A DNA stretch of 64,000 nt from positions 124,001 through 188,000 of the forward strand of contig ABHC01000009.1 in the NCBI GenBank assembly GCA_000171835.1. Direction: 5' to 3'. Both the position numbers and the translations under genes were made by a program. Source of the DNA: an alpha proteobacterium BAL199. GTDB taxonomy: Bacteria > Pseudomonadota > Alphaproteobacteria > Thalassobaculales > Thalassobaculaceae. The stretch's first letter is position 1. Each line of letters opens with the position of its first letter. Below are positions 36,350-56,509 of the stretch, piece after piece. The notes beneath the pieces were generated by a model that was not told the DNA's origin, did no database searches, and saw only the letters and a list, made by a program, of their open reading frames with translations.

Positions 36350-36440
36350 CTCATCCGGCATGTCGCGCACACCGCTGCCTTTCGGGCGGCGGTGACGCGT
36401 CATCGTCAGCGAACCGTGTTCGACCCAGAAGGCCTTCGAG

Positions 36441-37256
36441 GGTGTTGTCACGTTAACTCGTCGAGTTAGCAAGTTGGCATGCCGGTCGTTGATCAAGCGG
36501 CATGTGCCGCGGATTTCCAAGCTTCGAACGCTTCGAGCCGATGGTAGCGAATGGTGAGGGCGGAACGACGGCGGGCTGGGACAGAGTAACGATTGCGGGT
36601 TGCGGATTGCATAGACACGAAGCGTTGTAATCCACCCGGTGATCGGAAGCCTTGCATCACCCGCTCTCGTTTTCGGAAGGGCAAGTGGCTGTTCTCGGCG
36701 CGGTTATTGAGCCCCTTGTGTGACCAATGATCAAGGCCAGGCGCGACCTCGCGCTTGGCGGCCCCATATGAGCGCAGTTTGTCCGTAATGATCCTTTTGG
36801 GCACGAAGCCCCAACGTTTCATCAGCTTGATCAAAAGCCGCTTTGCAGCGCGCTTGTCTCGCTTCGATTGTAAGATTTCCTCAAGAACGACACCGTGTTG
36901 GTCGACGGCGCGCCACAGCCAGTATGACCGGCCCGCGATCTTCACGACGACTTCGTCCAGATGCCAAACATCACCAGGGCGAGGCTGCCGTCGCCGCAGA
37001 ACGTGGGCGATCCGGGGACCGAACTTGACGGTCCAGCGCCGGATCGTCTCATACGAAACGTCCACACCACGTTCCAGCATAAGCTCCTCGACCTCGCGCA
37101 GGCTCAAGTTGAACCGGGCGTAGAGCCAGACAACATGAGAAATAATCTGAGGCGGAAAGCGGTGGCGCTTGTAGCTGATTTTCTCTGTTTGCATCGACAC
37201 CGCCTACGCCCGGATCATTGAACCCGCAACCTCAGGCACGTTAACGTGACAACACC
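36441..37256 (-). mobile_element. IS6-family insertion sequence, copy B
   Basis: The full-length 816-base copy is inverted relative to copy A and has the same 17-base terminal repeats. A seven-base direct repeat, CTTCGAG, touches both ends (36434-36440 and 37257-37263). The right copy lies inside truncated copy C, while the left one lies in unrelated DNA. It differs from copies A, C and D by at least one silent base at 37144. Confidence 0.9.
36493..37200 (-). CDS. IS6-family transposase, copy B
   Basis: The protein is identical in translation to copy A (235 residues, same DDE residues). A single silent change, ATT for ATC, occurs in the PQIIS segment. It is intact and preceded on its coding strand by the tail of the copy C frame, which ends four bases upstream of this start. 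Confidence 0.93.
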   Translation of the reverse strand: MSMQTEKISYKRHRFPPQIISHVVWLYARFNLSLREVEELMLERGVDVSYETIRRWTVKFGPRIAHVLRRRQPRPGDVWHLDEVVVKIAGRSYWLWRAVDQHGVVLEEILQSKRDKRAAKRLLIKLMKRWGFVPKRIITDKLRSYGAAKREVAPGLDHWSHKGLNNRAENSHLPFRKRERVMQGFRSPGGLQRFVSMQSATRNRYSVPARRRSALTIRYHRLEAFEAWKSAAHAA

Positions 37257-37926
37257 CTTCGAGCCGATGGTAGCGAATGGTGAGGGCGGAACGACGGCGG
37301 GCTGGGACAGAGTAACGATTGCGGGTTGCGGATTGCATAGACACGAAGCGTTGTAATCCACCCGGTGATCGGAAGCCTTGCATCACCCGCTCTCGTTTTC
37401 GGAAGGGCAAGTGGCTGTTCTCGGCGCGGTTATTGAGCCCCTTGTGTGACCAATGATCAAGGCCAGGCGCGACCTCGCGCTTGGCGGCCCCATATGAGCG
37501 CAGTTTGTCCGTAATGATCCTTTTGGGCACGAAGCCCCAACGTTTCATCAGCTTGATCAAAAGCCGCTTTGCAGCGCGCTTGTCTCGCTTCGATTGTAAG
37601 ATTTCCTCAAGAACGACACCGTGTTGGTCGACGGCGCGCCACAGCCAGTATGACCGGCCCGCGATCTTCACGACGACTTCGTCCAGATGCCAAACATCAC
37701 CAGGGCGAGGCTGCCGTCGCCGCAGAACGTGGGCGATCCGGGGACCGAACTTGACGGTCCAGCGCCGGATCGTCTCATACGAAACGTCCACACCACGTTC
37801 CAGCATAAGCTCCTCGACCTCGCGCAGGCTCAAGTTGAACCGGGCGTAGAGCCAGACAACATGAGAAATGATCTGAGGCGGAAAGCGGTGGCGCTTGTAG
37901 CTGATTTTCTCTGTTTGCATCGACAC
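37204..37926 (-). CDS. IS6-family transposase with replaced C terminus, copy C
   Basis: The frame matches the family transposase through YHRLE and then, instead of the last dozen or so native residues, reads across the junction into copy B's end, adding about 17 foreign residues ([17 protein letters not shown]). The catalytic residues Asp82, Asp140 and Glu169 remain. The element has only one end, so it cannot move alone, but the enzyme might act on the other copies. Confidence 0.85.
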   Translation of the reverse strand: MSMQTEKISYKRHRFPPQIISHVVWLYARFNLSLREVEELMLERGVDVSYETIRRWTVKFGPRIAHVLRRRQPRPGDVWHLDEVVVKIAGRSYWLWRAVDQHGVVLEEILQSKRDKRAAKRLLIKLMKRWGFVPKRIITDKLRSYGAAKREVAPGLDHWSHKGLNNRAENSHLPFRKRERVMQGFRSPGGLQRFVSMQSATRNRYSVPARRRSALTIRYHRLEGCCHVNVPEVAGSMIRA

Positions 37927-37982
37927 CGCCTACGCCCGGATCATTGAACCCGCAACCTCAGGCACGTTAACGTGACAACACC
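37257..37982 (-). mobile_element. IS6-family insertion sequence, truncated copy C
   Basis: This copy keeps the upstream end (inverted repeat at 37966-37982) but has lost its last roughly 90 bases, including the other inverted repeat, where copy B begins. It lies head-to-tail with copy B, giving a tandem of two elements on the minus strand. Its intact end abuts a decapitated dihydroxyacetone kinase gene. Confidence 0.9.
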
Positions 37983-39222
37983 CTTGAACGTCAATATGGT
38001 GATCGTCGATGACGACATCGCGCTTCCCGATCTGCCCCAGGCGCGGGGTGTGGCCGGGACGCTGCTCGTCCACAAGATCGCCGGCGCCCTGGCCGACCAG
38101 GGGGGCGATCTAGCGGTGGTCACGACCGCCGCCAGGAACGCGATCGGCGCCATGGCGTCGATCGGCATGTCGCTTGACTCCTGCACCGTGCCGGGAAACG
38201 CCAAGGACAATCGCATCCCCGTCGGCAAGGCGGAACTCGGCCTCGGCATCCATGGCGAGCCGGGGGTCGAGCAGGTCGATTTCTGCGACGCGGCGGGCGC
38301 GGTCGAGATGGTCGTCGAGCGGCTCGCCGCGACGATCGCTCCAGGACCGCACGTGGCGTTGGTCAACAATTTGGGCAGCGCCACGGCGCTCGAGATGTCC
38401 GTATTGGTCGAAGAACTGATCAAGTCCCGTATCGGCGATCAGATCCGTTGGATGATCGGTCCGGCGCCGCTCATGACGTCGCTCGACATGCGCGGTTTTT
38501 CCGTCTCACTGCTGCCGGTAGGCAAGGCCGAGGAGATGGCCCTGATTGCGCCGGTGGCCTGCGCGGCATGGCCAGGCTGTCACCCGGTCGGCCGGATTGA
38601 CACCTGGCCGTTGCCGGATGGCTTGGCGCCCATTGCGCCGATGCCGTCACGCCACGACGGCCGCCGGGCGTTGATCGAGAATTGCTGTCGTGTGTTCATC
38701 GACGCCGAAGACGATCTCAACGCGCTCGACCTGAAGTCCGGCGACGGGGACACCGGGAGCACGCTGGCGACCGCGGCCCGGGCCCTCATCGGCGCCTTAG
38801 ACCGTTTGCCCCTGGCCGATATGACGCAGCTCTACCGAGCCATCGGGATGGAGCTCAGCCAGACCATGGGGGGCTCCTCAGGCGTGCTTCTGGCGATCTT
38901 CTTTGCCGCGGCGGGAGATGCGTCAGGCAATGGCGAGGACACGATCGGGGCGTTGAGTTCGGCGCTGAAGCGCGTCCAGGAGGTTGGCGGGGCCAAAATT
39001 GGGGATCGAACCATGGTGGACGCGCTCGACCCGGCAATCGACGCCTTGACCGGTGGACTGCGCGAAGCGGCGGTGGCCGCTCGCAAGGGGGCTGATGCCA
39101 CGGCGGCAATCGGCAAGGCCGGCGCCGGCCGCGCGAGCTACATCGCGTCGGCGAATCTCCTCGGCCACAACGACCCGGGAGCCGAGGCGGTTGCCCGCCT
39201 GTTCGAGCATCTGGCCAGGTAG
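37972..39222 (+). pseudogene. Dihydroxyacetone kinase (DhaK-DhaL fusion) lacking its N terminus
   Basis: The frame encodes about 416 residues of a fused DhaK/DhaL kinase. It retains the substrate-binding His region (AELGLGIHGEPG), the K-domain end (TSLDMRGFSVSLLP) and the complete ATP-binding L domain (DLKSGDGDTGSTL). Roughly the first 120 residues, including the GGGSGHEP-type loop, are missing where copy C begins. The IS end supplies an in-frame GTG (37972-37974, reading GTG-ACA-ACA-CCC), so a truncated product could be translated. Without the N terminus the K domain should not fold properly. Confidence 0.85.
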
Positions 39223-39753: not shown

Positions 39754-40497
39754 ATGACCGGAGACGCGCGTGAATACGGCAGCGGTGGATGGGTCGGCAT
39801 CGGTGTGCCTCAGGCCAACCCGACCGTGGAGATGGAGATGCGCCGGTTGCTCGGGCCGGGCGTCGAGCCGCTGACGACGCGGCTTACCAGCGGCGCCGGG
39901 ACATCCGAAGCGCGACTGGTCGAGTATCTGGATGACTTGCCCCGAACCCTTGAGAGCTATGATGCCCTGCGGCCTGACGTGTTCGGTTTCGCCTGCACGG
40001 GATCGTCCTATCTGTTGGGCGCAGCGCGGGAGGCGGAGATTGTGGCGGTGGCGCAGGACCGCTTCGGGTACCCGGTCATCACCGTCGCCAGAGCGATTCT
40101 GGAAGCCCTGTCGGCCCTGGATGCCCGACGGATCGCGCTGCTGGCCCCGTATCCCGCACGTTTGGTGAACGCCGGTGTCGCGTATTGGCGGGCGGCTGGG
40201 CTTGACGTCGTGGATGTCCGGCGCGTCGAGCTCGGCTCCGGCGACACCCGTCGAATCTACGGTCTGCGCAGCGACGATGCGGTGACCGCCTTGGAGAGCG
40301 GCGTGCCGGAGGATATCGACGCAGTGCTGATCACCGGGACCGGCATGCCGACATTGGCCGCTTTGCCGGTGCTGGGGGAGCGCATCGGCCGTCCGGTTCT
40401 GTCCTCGAACTATTGCCTCGCCTGGGCACTCCTGCGGGCGCTCGGACGGACCGATGCGCCCTGGAGCGCTGCGGGCACCACCCTGCCTCCTGTCTAG
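39754..40497 (+). CDS. Asp/Glu racemase superfamily protein (maleate isomerase / arylmalonate decarboxylase-like)
   Basis: The 247-residue protein (ATG at 39754; a GTG two codons upstream is also possible) begins WVGIGVPQANPTVEMEM, a family N-terminal pattern. One active-site Cys lies in FGFACTGSSYLLG (about residue 79) and a second in SSNYCLAWALLRALG (about 225). Relatives include maleate cis-trans isomerase, arylmalonate decarboxylase and hydantoin racemase. Its stop overlaps the stop of the convergent reductase gene by four bases. Context with hydantoinase-type genes suggests a step on the same substrate. Confidence 0.78.
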   Translation: MTGDAREYGSGGWVGIGVPQANPTVEMEMRRLLGPGVEPLTTRLTSGAGTSEARLVEYLDDLPRTLESYDALRPDVFGFACTGSSYLLGAAREAEIVAVAQDRFGYPVITVARAILEALSALDARRIALLAPYPARLVNAGVAYWRAAGLDVVDVRRVELGSGDTRRIYGLRSDDAVTALESGVPEDIDAVLITGTGMPTLAALPVLGERIGRPVLSSNYCLAWALLRALGRTDAPWSAAGTTLPPV

Positions 40498-42476
40498 CGG
40501 ATCGCCTGGCCGGCCCGGCGGCCTTCCGCCACCGCCTGCATCAGGGCACGGGGTTGGTAGGCATCGCCGATCACCTGCGGCGCGTGTCCGCGCTCCCGCA
40601 GGGCGGTCAGCAGCGCTGTGCGCGGGCGCCGGGGGGAGGCATGTGCGACGGCGTCGATCCCCTCGACCCTCAATCGCGCGCCGGTCAGCAGATGATGGAA
40701 GCCGACCGCACCCTGCATCAGATCGTCCGGAGCGAGATCGACCCGGGCATTGTTCTCGACCCGCACACGGCGCGCGGCGAGCCGTTCCAGCATGCCCTGG
40801 CGCACCACCAGGGGCTCCCGCTGGGCCGGGACCTCCCACTCCGACAGGACCGTGACCGTCGCGAACCGGTCGGCGAGCAACTCGGCGGCGCGGTAGACCC
40901 AGATGCTGTCGTCCCGGTCGATCAGCAGCAGGCCGTCGCCCATCGGACCAGCGCGTCGCAGCGCGTCCTGCACCAGCGCCCGCAGGGACGGCAGGGGCAG
41001 GCCATCATCGAGCGCCGGCCCGTCCCAGGGCGTCTCAGCGCCTGTCGCCAGGATGATGGTGTCGGGCGCGCAGGCCTCGACATCCTGGGCCGTGGCGGTC
41101 AGCCCGCGTTCGAGGCGGACGCCCGCGGCGGCGGCACGGGCGGCGTCGAAGTCGTACACCCCTTCGAGGCCCTCGCCCCCGGGCAGGCGTGCGGCGGTAT
41201 GGGCCCGGCCGCCGAGATCGCCCGAGGCGTGGAACAGGGTAACCGTATGCCCGGCCTCCGCCGCTTCGGCCGCCGCCGAAAGACCGGCGATCCCGCCGCC
41301 GACCACGACGACCCGACGCCCCTGCCTAGCACCCGGGCGAGGTCGCGATCCGCTCAGTTCCGCCGCCGTCCCGAGATCCGGATTGGTGTCGCAGACCAGG
41401 GAGGCGGGCTCGGCGATGGCCCCCCAGCAGGTGTTGCAGGACACGCAGGGCCGTATCGCATGGCTGCGGCCGGACAGGGCTTTTCCGGTCCAGGCCGGAT
41501 CGGCGATCAGGGCGCGCCCGACACCGATGAAATCCGCCTGGTCGCGGGCCAGCATCGCCTCGCCCTCGTTCGGATCGACGATACGGGCGAGGCCCATGAC
41601 CGGCACCCCGTTGGTGTCGCGGCGCAACTCCGCCGTCTTCTCGGCATAGGATGCGCGGGGCCAATGTCCGTCGGGGATATGCCAGTGGAGCTGCCGGTTC
41701 TGCGCGCCCCAGGCAAAGGCGACATAGTCGATTGTCTGCGGATCCGACAGGGCGGAAGCGATCTGGCCTGCCTGGGCGAGGTCGATGCCGGCGGGGTCGC
41801 CATCTTCGGCCGGGAGCTTCAGGCCGAGCACGAAGTCGCGTCCGCAGGCCGACCGGATCGCGGCGACCAGCTCGCGCAGCAGGGTCATCCGGCCGTCCAG
41901 GTCGCCGCCGAAGCGGTCGGTGCGGCGGTTGCTGTGGGCCGACAGGAACTGATGGAACAGGTGGCCGTGACCGGCGGAAACCTCCACCCCGTCGAATCCC
42001 GCCCGCTGCAGACGGCCGGCGGCGGCGGCGAAGGCGTCCACCATGGCCTCCACCTCGCCGGTCGACAGCGCGTGGGGAACGGCGCCGGTCAGGTCGTCGG
42101 GCAGGGCGCTTGGCGCGAAGGTCCGGTCGACTCGCGCCCGGGAGTAATTGCCGCGCCCGCGCTCCTGCAACTGGGCCAGGATCCGGCAGTCGTGGTGGGT
42201 GACGGCCGATGCGAGGCGCGCCAGATCGGGCAGCCCGGCGTCGCTATGGGCGTTCAGATAGGCGCCGCGGCCGGCCTGAGAGGGCAGGGCGTTCACCGCT
42301 TCGGTCACGATCATCGACACCCCGCCCTGGGCGCGGTTCCGGTGATAGGCGATCAGCCGGTCGGTGACCCGTTCCGCCGCGGCGTAGCGCGTCAGGATCG
42401 CCGCATGCGCGACCCGGTTCTTCAGCCGCAGCGCCCCGAATCGCAACGGGCGAGACAGGTGCTCGAAAGCGCTCAT
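40494..42476 (-). CDS. NADH:flavin oxidoreductase with Fe-S and FAD domains (dienoyl-CoA reductase / TMADH-like)
   Basis: The 660-residue protein has an old-yellow-enzyme TIM barrel (residues 1-340; GFDGVEVSAGHGHLFHQFLS, SNRRTDRFGGDLDGR). A 4Fe-4S motif follows (CVSCNTCWG and a fourth Cys in LVCDTNP), then a C-terminal FAD/NAD domain (VVVVGGGIAGLSAAAEAAEA). This matches FadH, trimethylamine dehydrogenase and stachydrine- or proline-betaine-demethylase relatives. It could reduce a conjugated bond or remove an N-methyl group. It starts inside the end of the LysR gene (four-base overlap), so both are translated together. Confidence 0.87.
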   Translation of the reverse strand: MSAFEHLSRPLRFGALRLKNRVAHAAILTRYAAAERVTDRLIAYHRNRAQGGVSMIVTEAVNALPSQAGRGAYLNAHSDAGLPDLARLASAVTHHDCRILAQLQERGRGNYSRARVDRTFAPSALPDDLTGAVPHALSTGEVEAMVDAFAAAAGRLQRAGFDGVEVSAGHGHLFHQFLSAHSNRRTDRFGGDLDGRMTLLRELVAAIRSACGRDFVLGLKLPAEDGDPAGIDLAQAGQIASALSDPQTIDYVAFAWGAQNRQLHWHIPDGHWPRASYAEKTAELRRDTNGVPVMGLARIVDPNEGEAMLARDQADFIGVGRALIADPAWTGKALSGRSHAIRPCVSCNTCWGAIAEPASLVCDTNPDLGTAAELSGSRPRPGARQGRRVVVVGGGIAGLSAAAEAAEAGHTVTLFHASGDLGGRAHTAARLPGGEGLEGVYDFDAARAAAAGVRLERGLTATAQDVEACAPDTIILATGAETPWDGPALDDGLPLPSLRALVQDALRRAGPMGDGLLLIDRDDSIWVYRAAELLADRFATVTVLSEWEVPAQREPLVVRQGMLERLAARRVRVENNARVDLAPDDLMQGAVGFHHLLTGARLRVEGIDAVAHASPRRPRTALLTALRERGHAPQVIGDAYQPRALMQAVAEGRRAGQAIR

Positions 42477-43387
42477 CGGCTCCGCCGCCCTTCGCGGCCC
42501 ACCCGTTTGATATGCTCCAGCATCCGCGCCACTTCCGCCGACATCGGCGTGCCGGCCGGCACATAGACGCCGTAGGCATGGGTAATGGCCGGCGCGATCT
42601 GGGCGGTCACCGTGTCGGGCCCGGCCAAAGCGCGCGCGACGAACGGATCCAGAATCGCGCAGCCGACCCCCGCCCGGGCCAGAAGGGCGGCGCTGGCGAG
42701 CGATGTCGTCTCCGCCACATAGGGCGGTTCCAATCCCAGGGCAGACCAGCTGGTCTCCACGCTCTCCTGATAGGAGGCGAAGGGGTCCAGGGAGATGAAG
42801 GGCAGCCCTGCCAGAAGCGACAGGTTCGGCCACTCGCCCGCCACGGGCCGCACACCCGCGGGTAGCATGGATTGGGGAACGGCCAGTTTCAGGTCGAACG
42901 GAATCTCGTGCACCAGTTCGAAGGCCAGCGGCCGCATCGGCAGCGGCGCCAGCACGATGTCGACCTGGTCCGACTGATCCAATCCCAGCACTTCGCTGAG
43001 GCTGCGCATGGTCGCGCTCGGCGGCAGGTCCGGGCGGTCGGCGATATAGCCGGCCAGCGCGTCGGGCAGCAGGCCGTGCATGATCGAGCTGGTCGCCACG
43101 AGACGGACCCGGTCATAGGTGCCGGCGCCGATCGAGCGGGCCACCCGCGGCAGATTGTCGAGCAGCTCGACCGCCTTGCGGGCATGGGCGGCGAAGGCGT
43201 GACCGTGCCGGTTCAGGGCAACCCGCCCCCGTACCCGGTCGAACAGGCGGAAGCCGATCTCGTCCTCCAGTCCGGAAATCTTTCGGCTGACCCCGGATTG
43301 GGTAAGGCCGAGGCGTTCCGCGGCGCGCGTGACGCTGCCGGTTTCGGCGACCGCCAGAAACGCTTTCAGGTGGTCTGGCAACGGCAT
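42473..43387 (-). CDS. LysR-family transcriptional regulator
   Basis: The 304-residue protein has an N-terminal winged helix (LKAFLAVAETGSVTRAAERLGLTQSGVSRKISGLEDE, residues 8-44) and a periplasmic-binding-like effector domain (about 90-295). It is divergently oriented to the Tct operon, the classical arrangement for autoregulated LysR activators. It overlaps the reductase gene it precedes by four bases. A dyad with T-N11-A geometry lies at 43408-43422, in the 144-base divergent promoter region. Confidence 0.93.
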   Translation of the reverse strand: MPLPDHLKAFLAVAETGSVTRAAERLGLTQSGVSRKISGLEDEIGFRLFDRVRGRVALNRHGHAFAAHARKAVELLDNLPRVARSIGAGTYDRVRLVATSSIMHGLLPDALAGYIADRPDLPPSATMRSLSEVLGLDQSDQVDIVLAPLPMRPLAFELVHEIPFDLKLAVPQSMLPAGVRPVAGEWPNLSLLAGLPFISLDPFASYQESVETSWSALGLEPPYVAETTSLASAALLARAGVGCAILDPFVARALAGPDTVTAQIAPAITHAYGVYVPAGTPMSAEVARMLEHIKRVGREGRRSR

Positions 43388-43422: not shown

Positions 43423-43531
43423 GCATTTATGATATCTAATAACTTTACATCATTGCTTCGTCATCCCTAGCATTTCCCATCAAGAGACACAGGCCCGCAA
43501 ATCGTGTCTCGGGGACAGCGAGGTGACTGAC

Positions 43532-44485
43532 ATGCGTGGACTTTCGAAATTGATAGGCGGCGTGCTTCTGGCCGCGACAATGTCGAGCGGTGCCTTCGCC
43601 GCCGGCTATCCGGACAAGCCGATCACCCTGATCTGCCCGTATTCCGCGGGCGGCGGCGGCGACACCGCATCGCGGATCATCGCCAAGCTCGCCGGCGATA
43701 TGATGGGTGTGCAGATCAACGTGGAGAACAAGACCGGCGGCGGGGCGACGATCGGCATTTCCGCCGTCGCCAATGCCGCGCCCGATGGCTATACGATCGG
43801 ATTCATCTCCACGAGTCCGATCACCATCCGCCCGCACATGATGGAAGCGCCGTACAATCCGATCGAGGACCTGACCTATATCGGCCAGTTCGTCGCCAGC
43901 AATCAGCCGATGATCGTGCGCGCCGACAGCCCCTACAAGAGCGTCGACGATCTGATCAAATTCGCCCGCGAGAACCCGGGCAAGCTGCGCTGGTCGACCT
44001 CCGTGCAGCGCGGCGGCCCGCATGTCGCCGTCGAAGCGATGTTCAAGGCCGAGGAGGTGGACGCGACCTTCGTGCCGTTCAAGGGCGGTTCCAAGGTTCT
44101 GGCGGCTCTGCTCGGCGGCACCATCGAGATGGCGATGATTTCCGAGGGCAATAAGTCGACCCTGGACGGCCAGACCCGGATCCTTGCCGAAGGCACGCCG
44201 AACAAGAACCCGGTGACGCCGGAGGCGCCGACCCTGACCGAAGCGGGTTATCCGATCGCGCCTGCCATTTTCTTTGGTCTCGCCGGTCCCAAGGGACTGC
44301 CGGACGACGTGCTGGCGAAGTGGGATGAGGTGCTGCCCAAGGTGCTGGCCAGCCCTGAGTTCAAGCAGATCGCCGAGGCGCAGCAGTGGACGGTCGCCCA
44401 TGCCGGCCATGCGGCGTTTACCAAGATCGTCGAGACCGATTACGCGGCCGCCAAGACGGCGATCGCTGCCATTGGAATGAAGTAG
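43532..44485 (+). CDS. Tripartite tricarboxylate transporter substrate-binding protein, TctC family
   Basis: The start at 43532 has GAGGTGA just upstream. The 317-residue protein has a Sec signal peptide (about residues 1-23, ending GAFAAGYPD), then the family motif KPITLICPYSAGGGGDTASRIIA that binds a carboxylate ligand through backbone and water contacts. Ligands of this family vary widely (citrate, tartrate, aromatic acids, nicotinate), so the name does not fix the substrate. It leads an operon with tctB and tctA. Confidence 0.92.
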   Translation: MRGLSKLIGGVLLAATMSSGAFAAGYPDKPITLICPYSAGGGGDTASRIIAKLAGDMMGVQINVENKTGGGATIGISAVANAAPDGYTIGFISTSPITIRPHMMEAPYNPIEDLTYIGQFVASNQPMIVRADSPYKSVDDLIKFARENPGKLRWSTSVQRGGPHVAVEAMFKAEEVDATFVPFKGGSKVLAALLGGTIEMAMISEGNKSTLDGQTRILAEGTPNKNPVTPEAPTLTEAGYPIAPAIFFGLAGPKGLPDDVLAKWDEVLPKVLASPEFKQIAEAQQWTVAHAGHAAFTKIVETDYAAAKTAIAAIGMK

Positions 44486-47573: not shown

Positions 47574-49202
47574 ATGATGGACCCGATCCGTGTCGGCCTG
47601 ATCTGGCGCCGCCTCGAAGGCGTCGTCGATCAGGTGGCGGAGACCTTCCTGCGCGCGGCGTTCTCCGTCGTCGTCCGCGACAACTACGACATGGCGTTCA
47701 GCCTGTTCGACTCCCAGGGCCGGCTGATCGCCCAGTCGAAGCGTAGCATCCCGAGCTTCACGGGCACGCTGCCGCGCACCCTGGAGGCGGTTCTGGAACG
47801 CTACCCGATCGAGCGGCTGAACCCGGGCGACACGCTGATCTCAAACGACAGCTGGATCGGCACCGGCCATCTCAACGACATCTCGATGATCCATCCGATC
47901 TTCAGTGACGGCCGGCTGATCGCGTTTGCCGGTAGTACCGCCCATACCGTTGATATCGGCGGGGCGCCGTCGCCGACCGCACGCGACCGCTATGAGGAGG
48001 GGCTCTGCATTCCGATCTGCAAGATCGTCGAGCGGGGCGAGGAGAGCGAGACCGTCATCGATTTTCTGACTCAGAACCTGCGCCAGCCGGACGAGACCCT
48101 CGGCGACATCCGCGCCCAGTTCGCCGCCTACCGCGACTGCACGGCGAAGCTGATGGACATGCTCGCCGATGAGGACCTGCCGGATCTGGACACCGTCGCC
48201 GACGAGATCATCGCCCGCTCCGAGGAGAGCATGCGTAAGGCCATCGCGGCCTTGCCCGACGGCGAATGGCGCGATGAATTTCAGACCGACGGCTTCGACC
48301 ATCCGCTGACCATCGCCTGCAAGGTCAGCATCTCGGGCGACGAGATGACGGTCGATTTCACCGGCACCTCGCCGCAGGTGCCCTGGCCGATCAACTGCGT
48401 GCTGAACTACACCCAGGCCTACAGCCGCTACGCGGTGAAGTGTCTGCTCGATCCGGAGGCGCCGAACAATGCCGGGTCGCTGCGGCCGATCCATGTGATC
48501 GCGCCGGAAGGATGCCTGCTGAACGCCCGATCGCCGGCGCCGGTCTGGGGGCGACATCTGTCCGGCCACTATGTCCCACCGGCGGTCCTCGGCGCGTTGG
48601 CGGCGGTGGTGCCGGAGCGGGCGGTGGCGGAATCCGGCTCGCCGCTCTGGAACGTCTATTTCAGCGGCCAGCGTGGCCCGAAAGCCGAGAACTTCGTCAA
48701 GATGTACTTCATGAATGGCGGCCACGGTGCGCGCTCGATCAGCGACGGTCCCGGCTGTCTCAGCTTTCCCAGCAACGTGTCGAACGAGCCGGTGGAGGTG
48801 TTCGAGAGCCAGACGCCGATGCTGGTCACCGAAAAGGCTTTCGTCCCGGACACTGGCGGGGCCGGGCGCAACCGTGGCGGCAACGCTCAGCGTATCGGCT
48901 TCCGCTCCCTGTCCGACGCGCCGATCACCATGACGATCCGCCACGAGCGGGTGAAATATCCGCCGCGCGGCCTGCTCGGCGGACTGCCGGGAGCGGCGGG
49001 CACCGACCGGCTGAACGGCGCGACGTTGGAGCCGAAGTCGCGCACCGTTCTGAAGCAGGGCGACGAGGTGGTGTTCCAGACACCCGGCGGCGGCGGGCTC
49101 TACCCGCCGCAGGAGCGCGCGCCCGAGAAGATCCGCACGGATATCGAGACCGGACTGGTAACCCGCGAGGAAGCGAGCAGGACCTATGGCAAGTTCGACT
49201 GA
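47574..49202 (+). CDS. Hydantoinase B/oxoprolinase family subunit
   Basis: The 542-residue protein has the HyuB features DNYDMAFSLFDSQGRLIAQS, LISNDSWIGTGHLNDISMIHPIF (metal/substrate region), VDFTGTSPQVPWPINCVLNYTQA and a GGAGRNRGG segment near the C terminus. HyuB pairs with HyuA to hydrolyse cyclic amides with ATP (N-methylhydantoin, 5-oxoproline), or forms related carboxylases. Its end overlaps hyuA by 17 bases. The order B then A is reversed relative to the common A-B order. Confidence 0.92.
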   Translation: MMDPIRVGLIWRRLEGVVDQVAETFLRAAFSVVVRDNYDMAFSLFDSQGRLIAQSKRSIPSFTGTLPRTLEAVLERYPIERLNPGDTLISNDSWIGTGHLNDISMIHPIFSDGRLIAFAGSTAHTVDIGGAPSPTARDRYEEGLCIPICKIVERGEESETVIDFLTQNLRQPDETLGDIRAQFAAYRDCTAKLMDMLADEDLPDLDTVADEIIARSEESMRKAIAALPDGEWRDEFQTDGFDHPLTIACKVSISGDEMTVDFTGTSPQVPWPINCVLNYTQAYSRYAVKCLLDPEAPNNAGSLRPIHVIAPEGCLLNARSPAPVWGRHLSGHYVPPAVLGALAAVVPERAVAESGSPLWNVYFSGQRGPKAENFVKMYFMNGGHGARSISDGPGCLSFPSNVSNEPVEVFESQTPMLVTEKAFVPDTGGAGRNRGGNAQRIGFRSLSDAPITMTIRHERVKYPPRGLLGGLPGAAGTDRLNGATLEPKSRTVLKQGDEVVFQTPGGGGLYPPQERAPEKIRTDIETGLVTREEASRTYGKFD

Positions 49203-51291
49203 ACGCAGAGGCTGGCGCATCGGCGTCGATATCGGCGGAACCTTCACCGACGTGGTGCTGTGGAACGACGCGGGCGGAGCGCTTCGGCGCGACAAGCTGC
49301 TGACCACCCCGGCGGACCCGTCGCGGGCGGTGGTCGACGGCATCGGCCGGATCCTGGCGCGCGAAGGGCTGCGGCCCATCGACCTGACCTCGGTCATTCA
49401 CGGCACGACCCTGGTGGCGAACGCCTTGATCGAGCGCCGCGGCGTGAAGACCGGGCTGGTGACGACGGCGGGGTTTCGCGACGTGCTGGAGATCGGCCGG
49501 GAGTGGCGCTACGACCTTTACGACCTGAACATCACCATGCCGACACCCCTGGTGCCGCGCGACCGGCGCACCGAAGTGGTCGAGCGGGTCTCCGCTTCCG
49601 GCGACGTGCTCACGCCGCTCGACGAGGACAGTGTCGTCGCGGCGGCGAAGACCCTGCGGGAGAGCGGGGCGGAAGCGGTGGCTGTGGCGCTGCTGCATTC
49701 CTATCGCAAGCCGGCTCATGAGCGCCGGGTCGGCGAGATCCTGGCAGGCGAACTGCCGGGCGTCGACATCACCCTGTCCTCCGACGTCAGCCCCGAACTC
49801 GGCGAGTACGAGCGGACGTCGACGGCGGTCGCCAATGCCTATGTGCTGCCGATCTTCGCGCGGTATGTCGGCCGGCTGGTGGACGAACTGCGGTCCATGG
49901 GTTTTGCCCACGACCTGCTGCTGATGCTGTCGGACGGCCGCTGCATCCGCGCCGACATCGCCGCGCGCTATCCGATCCGGCTGGTGCAGTCCGGCCCGGC
50001 GGCGGGGGCGGAGGCGGCCCGCCTGTTCGGGGATCTGGCGGATGTGGGTGACGTCCTGTGCTTCGACATGGGCGGGACGACGGCGAAGGCCTGCCTGATT
50101 CATCATGGCGAGCCGGAGCGCACCGCGCGTTTCGAGGTCGCCCGCGAGACCCGGTTCGCCGAGGGCAGCGGCCTCCCGCTGCAGATCCCGGCGATCGATA
50201 TGATCGAGATCGGCGCCGGCGGCGGCAGTATCGCCTCCATCGATGCCCGCGGCCTGATCCAGGTCGGGCCCCTGAGCGCCAGTGCCGATCCGGGACCGGC
50301 CTGCTACGGCAAGGGCAACGACAGGCCGACGGTCACCGACTGCGACCTGATCCTGGGATACCTGGACGCCGGGTCGTTCCTGGCCGGGCGCATGACCCTC
50401 GACAAGGCGGCGGCGGAGAAGGCGATCGAGACCCATCTGGCCAAACCGCTGGGCGTGTCGGTGGTCGAGGCTGCCTGGGGCGTGCATGAGACGGTAACCG
50501 CCAGCATGGCGCAGGCGGCCTCCATCCACGCCATCGAGCGCGGTTTGGATGCAACCCGTTTCGCCATGTTGCCGATCGGTGGCGCCGGTCCGGTGCATGC
50601 CTGCGGCATGGCGGCGAAGATGAACATCGACCGTTTGGTCTGTCCGGTTGGCGCCGGCGTGGCCTCGGCCATCGGCATGTTGGCGGCCCCGGTGTCCTTC
50701 GAGGTCGCGCGGGCGGCCCCGGTTCGGCTCGACGCGTTCGATCCCGCCGAGGCCCGGTCGCTGATCGAGGAGATGCGGCAGGAGACCCGCGCCCTGGTAA
50801 CGGGTGCCGGTATTGCCGAGGCGGATGTGAGCTACCGGGTCAGCGCCATGATGCGCTACGTCGGACAGGGCTACGAGATCGACGTGACGGTCGACGCCGC
50901 CCGGCTGGAGAGCGACGGGGCGGCCATGCTCGCCGCCGGGTTCGCCGAGGCCTACCGCGATCGTTACGGACGGGTGGAGCGCATGGCCAGCGAGATCCTG
51001 TCCTGGCGGGTGGTCGGCGCCGGTCCCCGCCCGCCGCTGGCCTCCGCCCTCAGCGCGTCGTCAGATCGCAAGGCCGAGGCCCCGGTTGCGACGGGGTCGC
51101 GGCCGGTGTTCTTCGGCGACGGCTTCGTCGACACCCCGGTCTATGCCCGCATGACCCTGGCCAGCGGCCAGACGCTTGTCGGTCCTGCGATCATCGAGGA
51201 GGACGAGTCCACGCTGGTGGTTCCGCCGTCCTTCGATCTGACGGTCGATGTCGCCCTGAACCTGGTGGCGGATCGGAGGGTTCCGGCGTGA
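49186..51291 (+). CDS. Hydantoinase A/oxoprolinase family subunit (ATP-binding)
   Basis: The 701-residue protein begins with the actin-like phosphate loop GVDIGGTFTDVVLWND (residues 12-27), then HGTTLVANALIERRG and a second phosphate loop CFDMGGTTAKACLIH. It ends in the small C-terminal domain of the family. It supplies the ATP-dependent activation of a lactam or imide carbonyl for HyuB. The start lies inside hyuB, and its stop overlaps the start of the next gene by four bases, so B, A and the ThDP enzyme are translationally coupled. Confidence 0.93.
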   Translation: MASSTERRGWRIGVDIGGTFTDVVLWNDAGGALRRDKLLTTPADPSRAVVDGIGRILAREGLRPIDLTSVIHGTTLVANALIERRGVKTGLVTTAGFRDVLEIGREWRYDLYDLNITMPTPLVPRDRRTEVVERVSASGDVLTPLDEDSVVAAAKTLRESGAEAVAVALLHSYRKPAHERRVGEILAGELPGVDITLSSDVSPELGEYERTSTAVANAYVLPIFARYVGRLVDELRSMGFAHDLLLMLSDGRCIRADIAARYPIRLVQSGPAAGAEAARLFGDLADVGDVLCFDMGGTTAKACLIHHGEPERTARFEVARETRFAEGSGLPLQIPAIDMIEIGAGGGSIASIDARGLIQVGPLSASADPGPACYGKGNDRPTVTDCDLILGYLDAGSFLAGRMTLDKAAAEKAIETHLAKPLGVSVVEAAWGVHETVTASMAQAASIHAIERGLDATRFAMLPIGGAGPVHACGMAAKMNIDRLVCPVGAGVASAIGMLAAPVSFEVARAAPVRLDAFDPAEARSLIEEMRQETRALVTGAGIAEADVSYRVSAMMRYVGQGYEIDVTVDAARLESDGAAMLAAGFAEAYRDRYGRVERMASEILSWRVVGAGPRPPLASALSASSDRKAEAPVATGSRPVFFGDGFVDTPVYARMTLASGQTLVGPAIIEEDESTLVVPPSFDLTVDVALNLVADRRVPA

Positions 51292-52904
51292 GCGATAGTC
51301 CCCCACGGTTCGTTGACTGGCTGGCCGCCGAGCTTGCCGCCCGAGGCACCCGGTTCGCCTTCGGTGTGCCGGGGGGCGGGACGACGCTGGACCTGCTGAT
51401 GGCGCTGCACGCCGCCGGCATCCGCTCGGTCATTACCGCGCGGGAGGATGCGGCCGCGATCATGGCCGGGGTTGCCGGACGCCTTGCGAACGCTCCCGGT
51501 GTCGCCTTCACCACCAAGGGACCGGGCCTCGCTTCGGCGACCAACGGGATCGCGTCGGCGCTGCTCGACCGGATGCCGGTGCTGACGGTCGCTGAGAATT
51601 TCGACCGGGACGAGCTCGCCTACCTGACCCATCAGGTCTTCGATCAAGCCGGGTTCGCCGCCGGCCTGTTCGACGGCACGCCGGGCACCGATGCGACGGT
51701 CGTCGGCGCGGACAGGACGGCGGTCTCGGCCGCCCTCGATGCGATGATGCGCACGCCCATGGGGCCGGCTTTGTTACTGGGCGAGCCGTCAGACATGACC
51801 GCGCCGGTCGGGGAGGGGGCAGCGCCCAGCGGCTCGCTCCCCGTCCCGCCAGGTGCCGATCTGGACCGGGCAGCCGCCCTGCTGGCGCGGGCGCACCGGC
51901 CGGTGATCGTCGCCGGTCTGGAAGCGACCACGCCGGAAGCGGCCGCGGGCATTCGTCGACTGGCGGAGGCGCTCGGGACGCCGGTGCTCGTCACCTACAT
52001 GGCCAAAGGTGTGGTGCCGGACGACCATCCGTTGTTCGCCGGGATCTTCACCGGCGGGGCGATCGAGCAGGCTTGCGTGGCCTCGGCCGATCTCATCGTC
52101 CTGGCCGGGCTCGACCCGGTGGAGCTGATCCGCAAGCCTTGGCCCTATGCCGCGCCGGTGCTGGATCTGTCGGCGGTTGCCTATGCGCCGCATTACGTGA
52201 CGCCGACGGTCCGCGTGCTCGGGCCGGTGGCGGCGGCGACCGGCGCGTTGGCGGATGAAGCCCAGCCCACCGACTGGACGGAAGAGGAAATCGCCGGCCA
52301 TCTGGAGCGGTTCCGCACCGGCATGTCGATGCCGACGGACGGCGGCCTGTCGGCGGGCGTCGTCGTCGATGCGGCCATTGCCGCGTTCGTGGACAGGCCC
52401 CGGCTGACCGTGGATGCCGGCGCGCATATGTTCTCCGCCTGCGCCTTCTGGCCCTGCGCCGAGCCGTTGGATCTGCTGATCTCCAACGGCCTTGCCAGCA
52501 TGGGCTTCGCGGTGCCGGCGGCGATCGCGGCGGCGCTGCACGACCCGGCGCGCGGCGCTCTGGCAATGACCGGCGATGGCGGGCTTCTGATGTGTCTCGG
52601 CGAGCTTAAGACGGCCGCCGCCCTCGGTGCCAACCTCACCGTCATCGTGTTCAACGACGCGGCACTCTCGCTGATCGACATCAAGCGCCAGCAACGCCAG
52701 ATGCCGGATCTGGGTCTGTCCTGGCCGGCACCGGATTTCGCGGCGATCGCCGGCGGTTTCGGCTTCGAGACCTGGACCGCCCGGAGCGAGAGGGAAATGC
52801 GCCAGGCCTGCTCGGCTGCCGCACGGTCGGTCGGACCGAGGCTGATCGATGCCCGGATCGACCCGGCTGGTTACCCCGACCAGCTTCGCAGCCTTCGTGG
52901 ATAG
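51288..52904 (+). CDS. Thiamine-diphosphate-dependent enzyme of the acetolactate synthase/decarboxylase family
   Basis: The 538-residue protein starts at a GTG with GGAGGG upstream. The N-terminal Pyr domain has RFAFGVPGGGTTLDLLMAL and the cofactor-activating Glu in ITAREDAAAIMAG. The middle Rossmann-like domain spans about 190-310. The C-terminal PP domain has the GDG-N motif (MTGDGGLLMCLGELKTAAAL then IVFNDAAL) that binds Mg-ThDP. Related proteins decarboxylate 2-oxo acids or form acetolactate. Its operon position after an aminotransferase fits removal of CO2 from the resulting 2-oxo acid. Confidence 0.9.
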   Translation: MSDSPPRFVDWLAAELAARGTRFAFGVPGGGTTLDLLMALHAAGIRSVITAREDAAAIMAGVAGRLANAPGVAFTTKGPGLASATNGIASALLDRMPVLTVAENFDRDELAYLTHQVFDQAGFAAGLFDGTPGTDATVVGADRTAVSAALDAMMRTPMGPALLLGEPSDMTAPVGEGAAPSGSLPVPPGADLDRAAALLARAHRPVIVAGLEATTPEAAAGIRRLAEALGTPVLVTYMAKGVVPDDHPLFAGIFTGGAIEQACVASADLIVLAGLDPVELIRKPWPYAAPVLDLSAVAYAPHYVTPTVRVLGPVAAATGALADEAQPTDWTEEEIAGHLERFRTGMSMPTDGGLSAGVVVDAAIAAFVDRPRLTVDAGAHMFSACAFWPCAEPLDLLISNGLASMGFAVPAAIAAALHDPARGALAMTGDGGLLMCLGELKTAAALGANLTVIVFNDAALSLIDIKRQQRQMPDLGLSWPAPDFAAIAGGFGFETWTARSEREMRQACSAAARSVGPRLIDARIDPAGYPDQLRSLRG

Positions 52905-53457: not shown

Positions 53458-54003
53458 TTACGCAGCACTCTTCCATTTTAGTGGAGTCATGTAGACGATG
53501 CGATCACCTACACTGACCATCACATCGCCATCCTGAATATTGATCTGGAGCCTCATCGCGCGGCTCGCCAGTTTTGCCAGTTCGCCCGTATCTTTTTCGG
53601 AAAAATTAATCACTTGAAGGTTCTCAAAACGGGTGGTGTTTTTCTTTATCTTGTCCCACCAGATTTCGGCCGTCCTGCCGCCATAAGGATAAACAATCAC
53701 TTTGCCGGCCTTGCCACAGGATTGACGCATCACCTTCTCGCTGGGAAGCCCTAGGGCCACCCATACATCAAGCGCGCCGTTCAAGCTCTTCTGCCAGATG
53801 TCGGGCTCGTCATCCGTTGACAGTCCCTTCGTCATTTCAAGATTCTCATGGGCATTGAGCGCAAAGGCGACAATGCGCACCATCAGACGTTCATTCGTCT
53901 CAGAGGGATGCTTTGCCACGGTCAATTTATGGGTCTCATAGTAGTGACGATCCATATCGGAGACCGAAAGCTCAACTTTATGAATGGTGGCATTCTGCGC
54001 CAT
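53458..54003 (-). CDS. YaeQ family protein
   Basis: The 181-residue protein matches the YaeQ family over its whole length: ATIHKVELSVSDMDRHYYETH, TNERLMVRIVAFALNAHE, LSTDDEPDIWQKSLNGALDVWVALG and PYGGRTAEIWWDKI. The fold is a PD-(D/E)XK nuclease relative, but no clear biochemical role is established. It is more AT-rich than surrounding genes and stands alone between an IS3 relic and an IS630 element, so it was probably acquired. The 286 bases between it and the IS630 element show no gene. Confidence 0.92.
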   Translation of the reverse strand: MAQNATIHKVELSVSDMDRHYYETHKLTVAKHPSETNERLMVRIVAFALNAHENLEMTKGLSTDDEPDIWQKSLNGALDVWVALGLPSEKVMRQSCGKAGKVIVYPYGGRTAEIWWDKIKKNTTRFENLQVINFSEKDTGELAKLASRAMRLQINIQDGDVMVSVGDRIVYMTPLKWKSAA

Positions 54004-54289: not shown

Positions 54290-55444
54290 CTAGTGGATAA
54301 AATCCGACATTAGAATCCCGCTCAGGATTCCCGCGGGTTCGGTGGCGTGCGAGTCTGGGGCATGCGCACCGGGATCAGCTTCACCGTCAGTACCGCCGAT
54401 CGCGCCCGCCTGGAGGCGATCGTGGCGGACCGCAACAGCCCGCAAAAGCACGTCTGGCGCTGCCGGATCGTGCTGCTCACCGCCGCGGGCCTGGGCACCA
54501 ACGCGATCATGCGCGAGGCCGGGGTCGCCAAGACGGCGGTCTGGCGCTGGCAGGAGCGCTTCGCCGCCGAAGGCGTGGACGGGCTGCTGCGGGACAAGAC
54601 GCGCCCGTCGCGGATCCCGCCGCTGGACCCCTCGGTGGCCGAGCGCGTCGTCGCCCTGACCCTGACCGATCCGCCCGGCGAGACGACCCACTGGACCGCC
54701 GCAACGATGGCGGCACAGACCGGCATCTCGGTTAGTTCGGTGCAGCGGATCTGGCGTGCTCACGGTTTGGCCCCGCATCGGATCCGGCAGTTCAAGCTCT
54801 CGAACGACCCGGAGTTCGTGACCAAGCTGCGCGACGTGGTCGGGCTCTATGTCGACCCGCCGGCCCACGCCATCGTGCTCAGCGTCGACGAGAAGAGCCA
54901 GATCCAGGCGCTCGACCGCACCCAGCCCGGCCTGCCGCTGAAGAAGGGCCGCGCCGGCACCATGACCCACGACTACAAGCGCCATGGCACCACCACCTTG
55001 TTCGCTGCCCTCAACGTGCTCGACGGCACCGTCATCGGCCGCAACATGCAGCGTCACCGCCACCAGGAGTTCATCCGCTTCCTCAACCACATCGAGGCCC
55101 AGGTTCCGGCCGGCAAGGTGATCCACGCCGTCCTCGACAACTACGCCGCCCACAAGCACCCCAAGGTCCGCGCCTGGCTGCACCGCCATCCCCGCTGGAC
55201 CTTCAACTTCGTGCCGACCTCATGTTCCTGGCTCAACGCCGTCGAAGGCTTCTTCGCCAGGCTCGCCAAGCGCCGCCTCAAGCGCGGCGTCTTCCGCTCT
55301 GTCGCCGACCTCCAGGCCGCCATCAACCGCTTCCTCGACGAGCACAACGCCTCAGATCCGAAGCCCTTCAACTGGACAGCCGATCCCGACAAAATCATCG
55401 CCGCCGTCAGGCGTGGGCACCAAGTGTTGGATTCTATCCACTAG
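54290..55444 (+). mobile_element. IS630-family insertion sequence
   Basis: The element runs from CTAG at 54290 to CTAG at 55444 (about 1155 bases). The ends are inverted repeats, CTAGTGGATAAAATCC on the left against CTAGTGGATAGAATCC on the right strand, one mismatch in 16. IS630 elements insert at TA, often within CTAG, which fits. One transposase gene fills it, and its stop codon lies in the right end. Confidence 0.88.
54362..55444 (+). CDS. IS630-family transposase
   Basis: The 360-residue protein has an N-terminal helix-turn-helix pair (TNAIMREAGVAKTAVWRWQERF) and a DDE domain: LSVDEKSQIQAL, VLDNYAAHKHPKV and SWLNAVEGFFARL provide Asp, Asp and Glu. An ATG five codons upstream is possible. 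The frame is intact, so the element may still be active. Confidence 0.93.
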   Translation: MRTGISFTVSTADRARLEAIVADRNSPQKHVWRCRIVLLTAAGLGTNAIMREAGVAKTAVWRWQERFAAEGVDGLLRDKTRPSRIPPLDPSVAERVVALTLTDPPGETTHWTAATMAAQTGISVSSVQRIWRAHGLAPHRIRQFKLSNDPEFVTKLRDVVGLYVDPPAHAIVLSVDEKSQIQALDRTQPGLPLKKGRAGTMTHDYKRHGTTTLFAALNVLDGTVIGRNMQRHRHQEFIRFLNHIEAQVPAGKVIHAVLDNYAAHKHPKVRAWLHRHPRWTFNFVPTSCSWLNAVEGFFARLAKRRLKRGVFRSVADLQAAINRFLDEHNASDPKPFNWTADPDKIIAAVRRGHQVLDSIH

Positions 55445-55693
55445 GATCGTCTCAGGTAGTGAGGAGTAGGGAACACACCTTGTTGTACCCGCAACTGATC
55501 GCCCGTTCGGATTTTCTTTGCTGTTGAGGGGCTATGATCCGATTTTCCGATCAGCCTAAGCTTTGGTTTCGCGAGACTTGAAGTTGATCAATTCCATCGA
55601 AGAGGCAGATCGCGCAATCGGGTATCTCTGATCGAACATCCGGATCACGCTAATCAAAGTTTCCGATTTCTAGATATCAACAGAACTACCAAC
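55445..55693. other. AT-richer spacer without a gene
   Basis: The 249 bases between the IS630 element and IS6 copy D contain no convincing reading frame, no hairpin terminator and no match to the truncated ends of the genes broken at the other IS6 copies. Confidence 0.5.
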
Positions 55694-56509
55694 GGTGTTG
55701 TCACGTTAACGTGCCTGAGGTTGCGGGTTCAATGATCCGGGCGTAGGCGGTGTCGATGCAAACAGAGAAAATCAGCTACAAGCGCCACCGCTTTCCGCCT
55801 CAGATCATTTCTCATGTTGTCTGGCTCTACGCCCGGTTCAACTTGAGCCTGCGCGAGGTCGAGGAGCTTATGCTGGAACGTGGTGTGGACGTTTCGTATG
55901 AGACGATCCGGCGCTGGACCGTCAAGTTCGGTCCCCGGATCGCCCACGTTCTGCGGCGACGGCAGCCTCGCCCTGGTGATGTTTGGCATCTGGACGAAGT
56001 CGTCGTGAAGATCGCGGGCCGGTCATACTGGCTGTGGCGCGCCGTCGACCAACACGGTGTCGTTCTTGAGGAAATCTTACAATCGAAGCGAGACAAGCGC
56101 GCTGCAAAGCGGCTTTTGATCAAGCTGATGAAACGTTGGGGCTTCGTGCCCAAAAGGATCATTACGGACAAACTGCGCTCATATGGGGCCGCCAAGCGCG
56201 AGGTCGCGCCTGGCCTTGATCATTGGTCACACAAGGGGCTCAATAACCGCGCCGAGAACAGCCACTTGCCCTTCCGAAAACGAGAGCGGGTGATGCAAGG
56301 CTTCCGATCACCGGGTGGATTACAACGCTTCGTGTCTATGCAATCCGCAACCCGCAATCGTTACTCTGTCCCAGCCCGCCGTCGTTCCGCCCTCACCATT
56401 CGCTACCATCGGCTCGAAGCGTTCGAAGCTTGGAAATCCGCGGCACATGCCGCTTGATCAACGACCGGCATGCCAACTTGCTAACTCGACGAGTTAACGT
56501 GACAACACC
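55694..56509 (+). mobile_element. IS6-family insertion sequence, copy D
   Basis: The full-length 816-base copy has the same 17-base terminal repeats as copies A and B and the same orientation as A. The flanking octamers (CTACCAAC left, TGCCGAAC right) do not match, so its two sides were brought together by recombination rather than one insertion. It forms the right boundary of the rearranged island. Confidence 0.92.
55750..56457 (+). CDS. IS6-family transposase, copy D
   Basis: The translation is identical to copy A (235 residues; Asp82, Asp140, Glu169). It is intact. Confidence 0.94.
   Translation: MSMQTEKISYKRHRFPPQIISHVVWLYARFNLSLREVEELMLERGVDVSYETIRRWTVKFGPRIAHVLRRRQPRPGDVWHLDEVVVKIAGRSYWLWRAVDQHGVVLEEILQSKRDKRAAKRLLIKLMKRWGFVPKRIITDKLRSYGAAKREVAPGLDHWSHKGLNNRAENSHLPFRKRERVMQGFRSPGGLQRFVSMQSATRNRYSVPARRRSALTIRYHRLEAFEAWKSAAHAA

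Follow-up and report, generated by a model that had tools for sequence, protein, structure and literature searches.

Why do the genes of a two-subunit HyuA/HyuB enzyme run directly into the gene of a thiamine diphosphate (ThDP) enzyme? This arrangement was noticed in the alpha proteobacterium BAL199, in a stretch of 64,000 nucleotides of contig ABHC01000009.1 (positions 124,001 to 188,000), which is called the window here and whose numbering is used throughout. The initial annotation described hyuB, hyuA and the ThDP gene as a translationally coupled trio with inverted subunit order, and suggested stoichiometric coupling of two enzymes whose reactions follow each other directly. The present analysis points to a larger unit. 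With a probability that we put at roughly one half, the trio belongs to a single catabolic operon for the import of a cyclic amide, its ring opening, transamination and decarboxylation to an aldehyde. This reading builds on the gene content, the overlaps, the conservation across gene orders and lineages, the intact catalytic residues and the sequence distinctness of the ThDP protein from acetohydroxyacid synthase (AHAS). The operon is apparently undescribed within the literature searched and consists of known enzyme families; no HyuA/HyuB-ThDP operon was found in that search, which was made by title and abstract opening, with preprints and most subscription journals outside its scope.

The seven-gene run and its conservation

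Rechecking of the open reading frame (ORF) coordinates proved the three frames of the trio exact, together with the 17 nt shared by hyuB and hyuA and the 4 nt (GTGA) shared by hyuA and the ThDP gene. The annotated span omits four same-strand genes directly 5' of hyuB. Because tctC, tctB, tctA and the gene of a branched-chain aminotransferase (BCAT)-like enzyme lie directly upstream on the same strand, the trio forms the 3' end of a run of seven genes, tctC-tctB-tctA-BCAT-hyuB-hyuA-ThDP, from which a LysR gene diverges. The BCAT-like gene stops 13 nt before hyuB. The genes of the run are the following.

43523..44485, + strand: TctC-like periplasmic solute receptor of a tripartite tricarboxylate transporter (TTT); Pfam TctC 156 bits
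44558..45082, + strand: TctB-like small membrane subunit; Pfam TctB 44 bits
45075..46601, + strand: TctA-like large membrane subunit; Pfam TctA 465 bits
46640..47560, + strand: class IV (BCAT-like) aminotransferase; Pfam Aminotran_4 122 bits
47574..49202, + strand: HyuB gene, ATG start, 542 aa; Pfam Hydantoinase_B 492 bits
49186..51291, + strand: HyuA gene, ATG start, 701 aa; Pfam Hydantoinase_A 282, Hydant_A_N 186 and Hydant_A_C 57 bits
51288..52904, + strand: ThDP gene, GTG start, 538 aa; Pfam TPP_enzyme N/M/C

Homologues of the window's ThDP protein, which served as the seed, were collected from plasmid records, related genomes and named genome contigs. The plasmid records gave 871 matches, and five regions were opened. 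A homologue was present in 26 of 41 related genomes at E<=1e-50 and in 31 of 385 genomes of the same class at E<=1e-70. The named genome contigs were scanned with an alignment of the module's ThDP proteins, and the best 80 of 432 relatives were kept. In total, 137 loci entered the analysis; one without a full-length ThDP gene (L051) was dropped, and removal of near-identical copies reduced the remaining 136 to 122 distinct loci. HyuA and/or HyuB lay within 10 kb of the ThDP gene in 71 of these, although such module fractions are not population frequencies because the choice of seed biases the set towards the ThDP branch of the module. The adjacency is thus not unique to this genome, which bears out the idea of a conserved functional unit, and a chance adjacency of the trio is ruled out by its conservation in many genomes.

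A BCAT-like transaminase was encoded within 10 kb in 40 of the 71 HyuAB-bearing loci. In 14 of them TctA lies close to the ThDP gene, many of the remainder being cut loci, and tctC is kept at the cluster head in relatives. Complete seven-gene runs are seen, for example, in L043, L045, L046, L048, L064, L066 and L068. According to the record titles, hosts of the module belong to the Alpha-, Beta- (Variovorax sp. KK3 and a Burkholderiales metagenome-assembled genome) and Gammaproteobacteria. One metagenome-assembled genome holds two complete seven-gene clusters on different contigs (L097 and L098; also L043 and L045), and its bin may mix strains.

The gene order varies. BCAT-HyuB-HyuA-ThDP was found in 28 of the 71 loci, including L162, where a divergent aldehyde dehydrogenase (ALDH) gene adjoining hyuB lies between it and the BCAT gene. 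ThDP-HyuB-HyuA accounts for 22 loci, and for six more with BCAT on the opposite strand. The less frequent orders are HyuA-ThDP (4, each running into a contig end), HyuB-HyuA-ThDP (3), HyuB-HyuA-ThDP-BCAT (2), ThDP-HyuB (2, both cut) and four singletons. Altogether the ThDP gene stands upstream of hyuB in 30 of the 71 loci. Among the full 122, BCAT-ThDP without Hyu genes occurs in 3 loci, and neither BCAT nor Hyu genes were present in 48.

The gene junctions were tabulated for 63 loci with both Hyu genes, taking for each gene the start nearest to that of its homologue. Of the 62 loci in which the HyuB-HyuA junction could be measured, 57 have an overlap; HyuA and ThDP overlap in 24 of 33, by exactly 4 nt in 19. 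Where the ThDP gene comes first, it overlaps hyuB in 4 of 28 loci and lies no more than 30 nt away in 27. In L068, an outlying seven-gene run, both junctions lack an overlap. Since 4-nt overlaps are commonplace in bacterial operons, the overlaps reflect tight operon packing rather than stoichiometry. In Variovorax sp. KK3 an ALDH gene separates hyuA from the ThDP gene. Together with this and with the loci in which the ThDP gene precedes hyuB, the packing removes the ground for the proposed stoichiometric coupling.

The inverted subunit order holds in a relative sense. Five other HyuA/HyuB pairs were placed in the genome: one is B-then-A and four are A-then-B, including one that occupies a single open frame. 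For two more HyuA matches, no HyuB counterpart reached the cut-off. A fused HyuA-HyuB protein of 1418 aa is encoded in one open frame of the same genome (G000:C21:8356-12132). The B-then-A order therefore differs from most paralogues here, but every module with both genes measured on the same strand shows it, and the caprolactamase coding sequence also has the order CapB-CapA (PMC8453981; the papers cited by PMC number are drawn on in part). An inverted order as a meaningful feature was rejected on these grounds.

A ThDP tree of 122 rows was built by a quick method and rooted at the midpoint, several long branches being flagged. In the parts of the tree listed, 63 of the 76 rows of the module's ThDP clade (Shimodaira-Hasegawa-like approximate likelihood ratio test, SH-aLRT, 89) have HyuAB; of the 13 without it, 9 have an uncut context. 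None of the 15 rows of a neighbouring group (SH-aLRT 83) has HyuAB, 8 with full context and 7 cut. Beyond a flagged branch, the Shinella-type clade, itself long-branch-flagged, has HyuAB in 2 of 5 rows. HyuB-HyuA-ThDP plus BCAT recurs in Shinella in a distant ThDP lineage, with a rearranged set in G391. The proteins of Shinella WSC3-e are 34% (ThDP), 48% (HyuA), 45% (HyuB) and 42% (BCAT) identical to those of the window. HyuB of the KK3 module is 59% identical to the window's, and HyuB matches outside window-type modules reach at most 45% (11 genomes or records). Since the 45% of the Shinella HyuB falls within this non-module range, the Shinella HyuAB may have been recruited separately from the window-type HyuAB, as far as identity values can tell. 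Pairwise distances are highly correlated among 60 loci, with r of 0.96 for ThDP-HyuA, 0.95 for ThDP-HyuB and 0.97 for HyuA-HyuB (0 of 999 permutations as high).

The HyuAB pair and the ThDP enzyme

Hydant_A_N, Hydantoinase_A, Hydant_A_C and Hydantoinase_B all scored above their Pfam cut-offs, which places the pair in the HyuA/HyuB superfamily. D39, H99, D102 and H124 of HyuB align with the CapB metal ligands Asp41, His99, Asp102 and His124, and each is present in 60 of 60 module sequences. The HyuA phosphate motifs are DIGGTFTD (D15) and DMGGT (D294), corresponding to CapA D11 and D295; both aspartates are likewise found in 60 of 60. In the adenosine motif GxxPGP, PGP is present in all 60 and the window has S for the first G. 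The ATP and metal residues matter in the caprolactamase CapAB (PMC8453981). By family, HyuB would be the metal-binding subunit and HyuA the ATP-binding subunit of an ATP-dependent cyclic-amide hydrolase.

Among solved structures, HyuA and HyuB scored best against the ATP-dependent N-methylhydantoinase (400 and 235 bits), then against caprolactamase (360 and 142 bits), and third against carboxylase subunits (283 and 88 bits at best). The N-methylhydantoinase (7HK5) is the best solved relative of both subunits; it differs in being a single chain of 1288 aa with the HyuA part first. CapAB of Pseudomonas jessenii (6YRA) resembles the window pair in its two HyuA/HyuB subunits, Asp-His-Asp-His metal site, ATP phosphate motifs and B-before-A order (PMC8453981). 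On the caprolactamase equivalog models NF050156 and NF050157, the window proteins gave 498.7 and 207 bits against a cut-off of 1000. Because these scores are about half of the cut-off or less, the pair is not a caprolactamase by this test. CapAB also makes an omega-amino acid, whereas the window has a class IV BCAT-like transaminase followed by a ThDP gene. The acetophenone carboxylase models, with acetone carboxylase as a relative, gave 294.8 (ApcC), 188 (ApcA) and 79.6 bits (ApcD) against cut-offs of 1250-1500. Since HyuA and HyuB fall below each NCBIfam equivalog cut-off listed, the family does not name the substrate. The CapA Lys40 oxoprolinase test was left unused because this residue could not be mapped; K37 of the window aligns with a lysine at CapA position 32.

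For the ThDP protein, E53 and the GDG at 429-431 are present in 60 of 60 sequences, N456 in 58 and D457 in 60. The ThDP-dependent decarboxylase superfamily is defined by Glu at standard position 51 and GDGX24-27N (PMC3534367), and the window protein has this pattern. Its HQ pair (H115, Q116) and GDG...ND motif are as in the catabolic acetolactate synthase (ALS) AlsS. An AlphaFold2 model was obtained with a predicted local distance difference test score (pLDDT) of 91.9; its nearest solved structures are AlsS enzymes, with template modelling (TM) scores of 0.86-0.88 at 24-28% identity. The modelled fold therefore suggests a member of the AlsS-like branch, for which the function of a 2-oxo acid decarboxylase is proposed.

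The best score on an ALS model was 232.4 bits against a cut-off of 509 (among the best 25 of 53 families). On TIGR00118 (cut-off 538.35), the whole protein gave 160.2 bits and its best stretch 112, the lowest of the 13 rows listed (one gene over two rows), in contrast to 799.8 bits for the canonical AHAS of the same genome. No match to acetolactate decarboxylase (AlsD) was found in the genome, the control being positive in 3 of 14 genomes, and no AHAS small-subunit gene was identified by Pfam in the seven-gene run. Identity with the housekeeping AHAS was rejected, considering the two TIGR00118 scores, the separate canonical AHAS and the missing AlsD match. To judge from these sequence scores, the protein appears unlike the cell's acetolactate synthase. 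Neither of the two findings named as refuting the initial annotation, an adjacency unique to this genome or a functional acetolactate synthase, has thus turned up so far. Glyoxylate carboligase was set aside because E53 is kept and that family has Val there (PMC3534367).

AlsS Q424 and Q487 position the second pyruvate (PMC9469723). They align with A403 and K466 of the window protein, so that the glutamines expected of an ALS are absent. All 122 homologues have K466. A403 is shared by 85 of the 122; among the 71 HyuAB-linked rows it is present in 69, the other two having G. The replacement is weak evidence, however, because the AlsS Q424S and Q487S mutants condense pyruvate faster (PMC9469723) and 13bb_A, deposited as an acetolactate synthase, also has the lysine. 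In a study of thiodipropionate (TDP), a putative acetolactate synthase, IlvX, was induced, and TDP-negative or reduced growth is stated only of other deletions; no link of IlvX to HyuAB was seen in the part of PMC6370202 consulted. The second-best ThDP match in the BAL199 genome (L058, G000:C69:18805-20295; 38% identity) adjoins an acyl-CoA-dehydrogenase-like gene, and no HyuAB was found within the 20 kb read there.

Order of the steps and competing explanations

In the proposed pathway, the TTT system would import a small carboxylated cyclic amide such as a lactam, hydantoin or imide acid. HyuA would activate it with ATP, and HyuB would hydrolyse it at the metal site to an alpha-amino acid. 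The BCAT-like enzyme would transaminate this to a 2-oxo acid, which the ThDP enzyme would decarboxylate to an aldehyde, and the aldehyde would pass to an aldehyde dehydrogenase that is encoded nearby in a few relatives. The BCAT-like enzyme has the Aminotran_4 domain and scores near but below the branched-chain aminotransferase equivalog cut-offs (PRK06606, 256.3 bits against 279; second model, 240.6 against 245.55).

The neighbourhoods of relatives bear on the order. BCAT-ThDP without HyuAB is seen in L115 and L120, with full context, and in L114, cut upstream at the contig edge; in L115 and L120, DctM/NMT1-type transporters are encoded on the opposite strand. A TctC gene, an SMP-30/gluconolactonase-type gene and a gene for an alpha-hydroxy-acid-oxidizing protein come after the ALDH-ThDP pair of Variovorax paradoxus VAI-C. 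Because relatives lacking HyuAB adjoin a transaminase, or an alpha-hydroxy-acid oxidase with ALDH, the ThDP step probably comes after formation of the 2-oxo acid. This supports HyuAB as one of several entry modules feeding the ThDP step. Direct chemical succession from HyuAB to the ThDP enzyme, as first annotated, does not fit the transaminase in 40 of 71 loci, the three BCAT-ThDP loci or the intervening ALDH gene of KK3. The likely order is HyuAB, transaminase, ThDP enzyme and aldehyde dehydrogenase. In Ehrlich-type amino acid breakdown, too, an aminotransferase is followed by a ThDP 2-oxo acid decarboxylase to give an aldehyde; here, the amino acid would come from ATP-dependent ring opening and a TTT importer of the same operon.

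Several observations weigh against this pathway. HyuAB is lacking at 51 of the 122 ThDP loci, 32 of them with full context, and was present in only one of the five opened plasmid regions. The 22 loci of the order ThDP-HyuB-HyuA have no BCAT gene, and the six related ones have it on the other strand; many of these loci carry gamma-glutamyltranspeptidase- and 2-hydroxyacid-dehydrogenase-type genes, and the pathway need not be the same there. Of the 71 HyuAB loci, just 3 have an ALDH gene nearby, and the window operon has none. K466 is no mark of the module because it is also present in all 51 rows without HyuAB. The distance correlations are partly a product of shared host species history. A FadH/OYE-type gene beside the operon hints at an unsaturated substrate or intermediate, and thus at an extra reductive step outside the scheme.

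Other explanations were weighed against the proposed operon. The ThDP enzyme could be an acetolactate-synthase-like carboligase that joins a decarboxylated 2-oxo acid unit to an aldehyde or 2-oxo acid derived from HyuAB and BCAT. In structure and sequence it comes closest to catabolic acetolactate synthases and carboxyethylarginine synthase, the HQ pair and GDG...ND motif are shared with AlsS, and 13bb_A, with a lysine at the position aligned with K466, is the best sequence match, all of which tells against a simple decarboxylase and keeps a carboligase in play. AlsS (1OZF, 4RJI) indeed shares the fold and the ThDP machinery; it differs in sequence, in its two glutamines, and in that the window protein stands in a HyuAB and transaminase context in a genome without an alsD match. 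The scores far below the ALS cut-offs, the lack of an identified small-subunit gene in the run and, as a weak point, the replaced glutamines argue for decarboxylation over carboligation, and the ALDH neighbours in Variovorax better fit an aldehyde product. Carboligation is therefore considered unlikely. It is rather improbable that HyuAB and the ThDP enzyme are parallel, co-induced branches of a carboxylate-scavenging operon with no common intermediate. TTT systems import many acids, and the ThDP relatives without HyuAB stand in varied surroundings, as such branches would predict. The pairing, however, outlasts rearrangement in several lineages, and two ThDP lineages are combined with the same kind of transaminase.

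HyuAB might also be an ATP-dependent carboxylase or activator, like acetone or acetophenone carboxylase, with the carboxylate later removed by the ThDP enzyme. That HyuA/HyuB relatives include carboxylases of the same superfamily, with the same metal and ATP motifs and 295 bits on the ApcC model, counts against a hydrolase. Both subunits nevertheless score higher against N-methylhydantoinase and caprolactamase, the ORF and Pfam survey between 43523 and 52904 identified no gene for a third or further carboxylase subunit, and a transaminase partner fits a nitrogen-releasing step. Hydrolysis would thus be preferred, and we regard a carboxylase as quite improbable. A 5-oxoprolinase route from pyroglutamate through glutamate and 2-oxoglutarate to succinic semialdehyde is chemically possible, with no evident need for a dedicated pathway.

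A wider picture is offered tentatively and may well prove wrong. In it, a widespread cyclic-amide-acid route would consist of TTT import, ATP-driven opening of the ring by a dedicated HyuAB clade and transamination, and 2-oxo acids derived from cyclic amides, amino acids, 2-hydroxy acids or lactones would all leave by decarboxylation through the 'K466' branch of AlsS-like ThDP enzymes. The HyuAB-BCAT-ThDP set would have been assembled on two or more occasions, once as the window type and once as the Shinella type. In this picture, the invariant lysine that replaces AlsS Gln487 may bind a second carboxylate; the 2-oxo acid would then be a dicarboxylate, which would suit the TTT importer. Bacterial genomes hold many HyuA/HyuB and ALS-like genes, most of which carry default annotations; labels among the plasmid records were 'thiamine pyrophosphate-binding protein' and 'acetolactate synthase large subunit'. 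Through its conservation, the set places one HyuAB clade and one ThDP branch in a common context and provides named hosts for a substrate search, such as Falsiroseomonas stagni DSM 19981 and Variovorax sp. KK3. If true, it would mean an ATP-driven entry of stable ring amides into proteobacterial amino-acid catabolism.

Neighbouring genes and mobile elements

Two genes on the minus strand precede the operon.

42473..43387, - strand: LysR-type regulator, divergent; Pfam HTH_1 and LysR_substrate
40494..42476, - strand: FadH/OYE-type flavin oxidoreductase, an associated gene; Oxidored_FMN 188.5 bits on the longer ORF

A LysR homologue adjoins tctC in 10 of 29 chosen loci, with 48-88% identity in nine and 31% in L132, and the divergent LysR protein is likely the operon regulator. 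The ATG of the FadH/OYE gene (660 aa) overlaps the LysR stop (ATGA), and a longer ORF of 779 aa probably has the wrong start; the protein resembles mycofactocin OYE_2, although TIGR03997 gave only 455 bits against a cut-off of 793. A full-length homologue lies beside the module in 3 of 121 other loci (L046, L066 and L110), convergent to the ThDP gene or beyond it. L094 and L096 have only a short N-terminal piece at the locus edge, where the match extends in a different frame over the LysR gene.

Clustering of every ORF in the loci yielded numerous shadow ORFs, as the DNA is GC-rich, and the clusters were used only to pick genes for Pfam; a codon-bias gene picker misplaced genes in L151. In the Roseomonas-type group, D-2-hydroxyacid dehydrogenase-type, major facilitator superfamily (MFS) and gamma-glutamyltranspeptidase-type genes lie upstream of ThDP-HyuB-HyuA, as judged from annotation labels and ORF clusters, with Pfam on one example each (L153 for the dehydrogenase, L145 for the transpeptidase). 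The dehydrogenase would be a further neighbour able to supply 2-oxo acids. The transpeptidase-type gene (L145:7292-8989) has counterparts in 14 other loci through its ORF cluster, with a 4-nt overlap in L160, and a possible role is that of an amide-cleaving entry step. An acyl-CoA-dehydrogenase-like gene is located 3' of the ThDP gene in L144, L158, L162 and L168; those of L144, L158 and L162 are 70-73% identical to one protein of Variovorax sp. SRS16 plasmid 3.

Copies of an IS240-type transposase (Pfam DDE_Tnp_IS240), which we take to be of the IS6 family, are 99.7-100% identical at 31910-32673, 36435-37988 and 55691-56509. Two copies stand in tandem at 36.4-38.0 kb, with inverted repeats of 19-23 nt. 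These near-identical insertion sequence (IS) copies flank the segment from the LysR gene to the ThDP gene and are oppositely oriented, so the operon of the window may lie within a mobile or rearranged region. A dihydroxyacetone-kinase-like ORF (Dak1+Dak2, 37972-39222) looks insertion-truncated because it begins at the IS edge and its Dak1 match starts at profile position 110. Downstream of the operon are a YaeQ-family gene (53458-54003) and a transposase-like ORF of 365 aa (54347-55444), presumably of the IS630 type.

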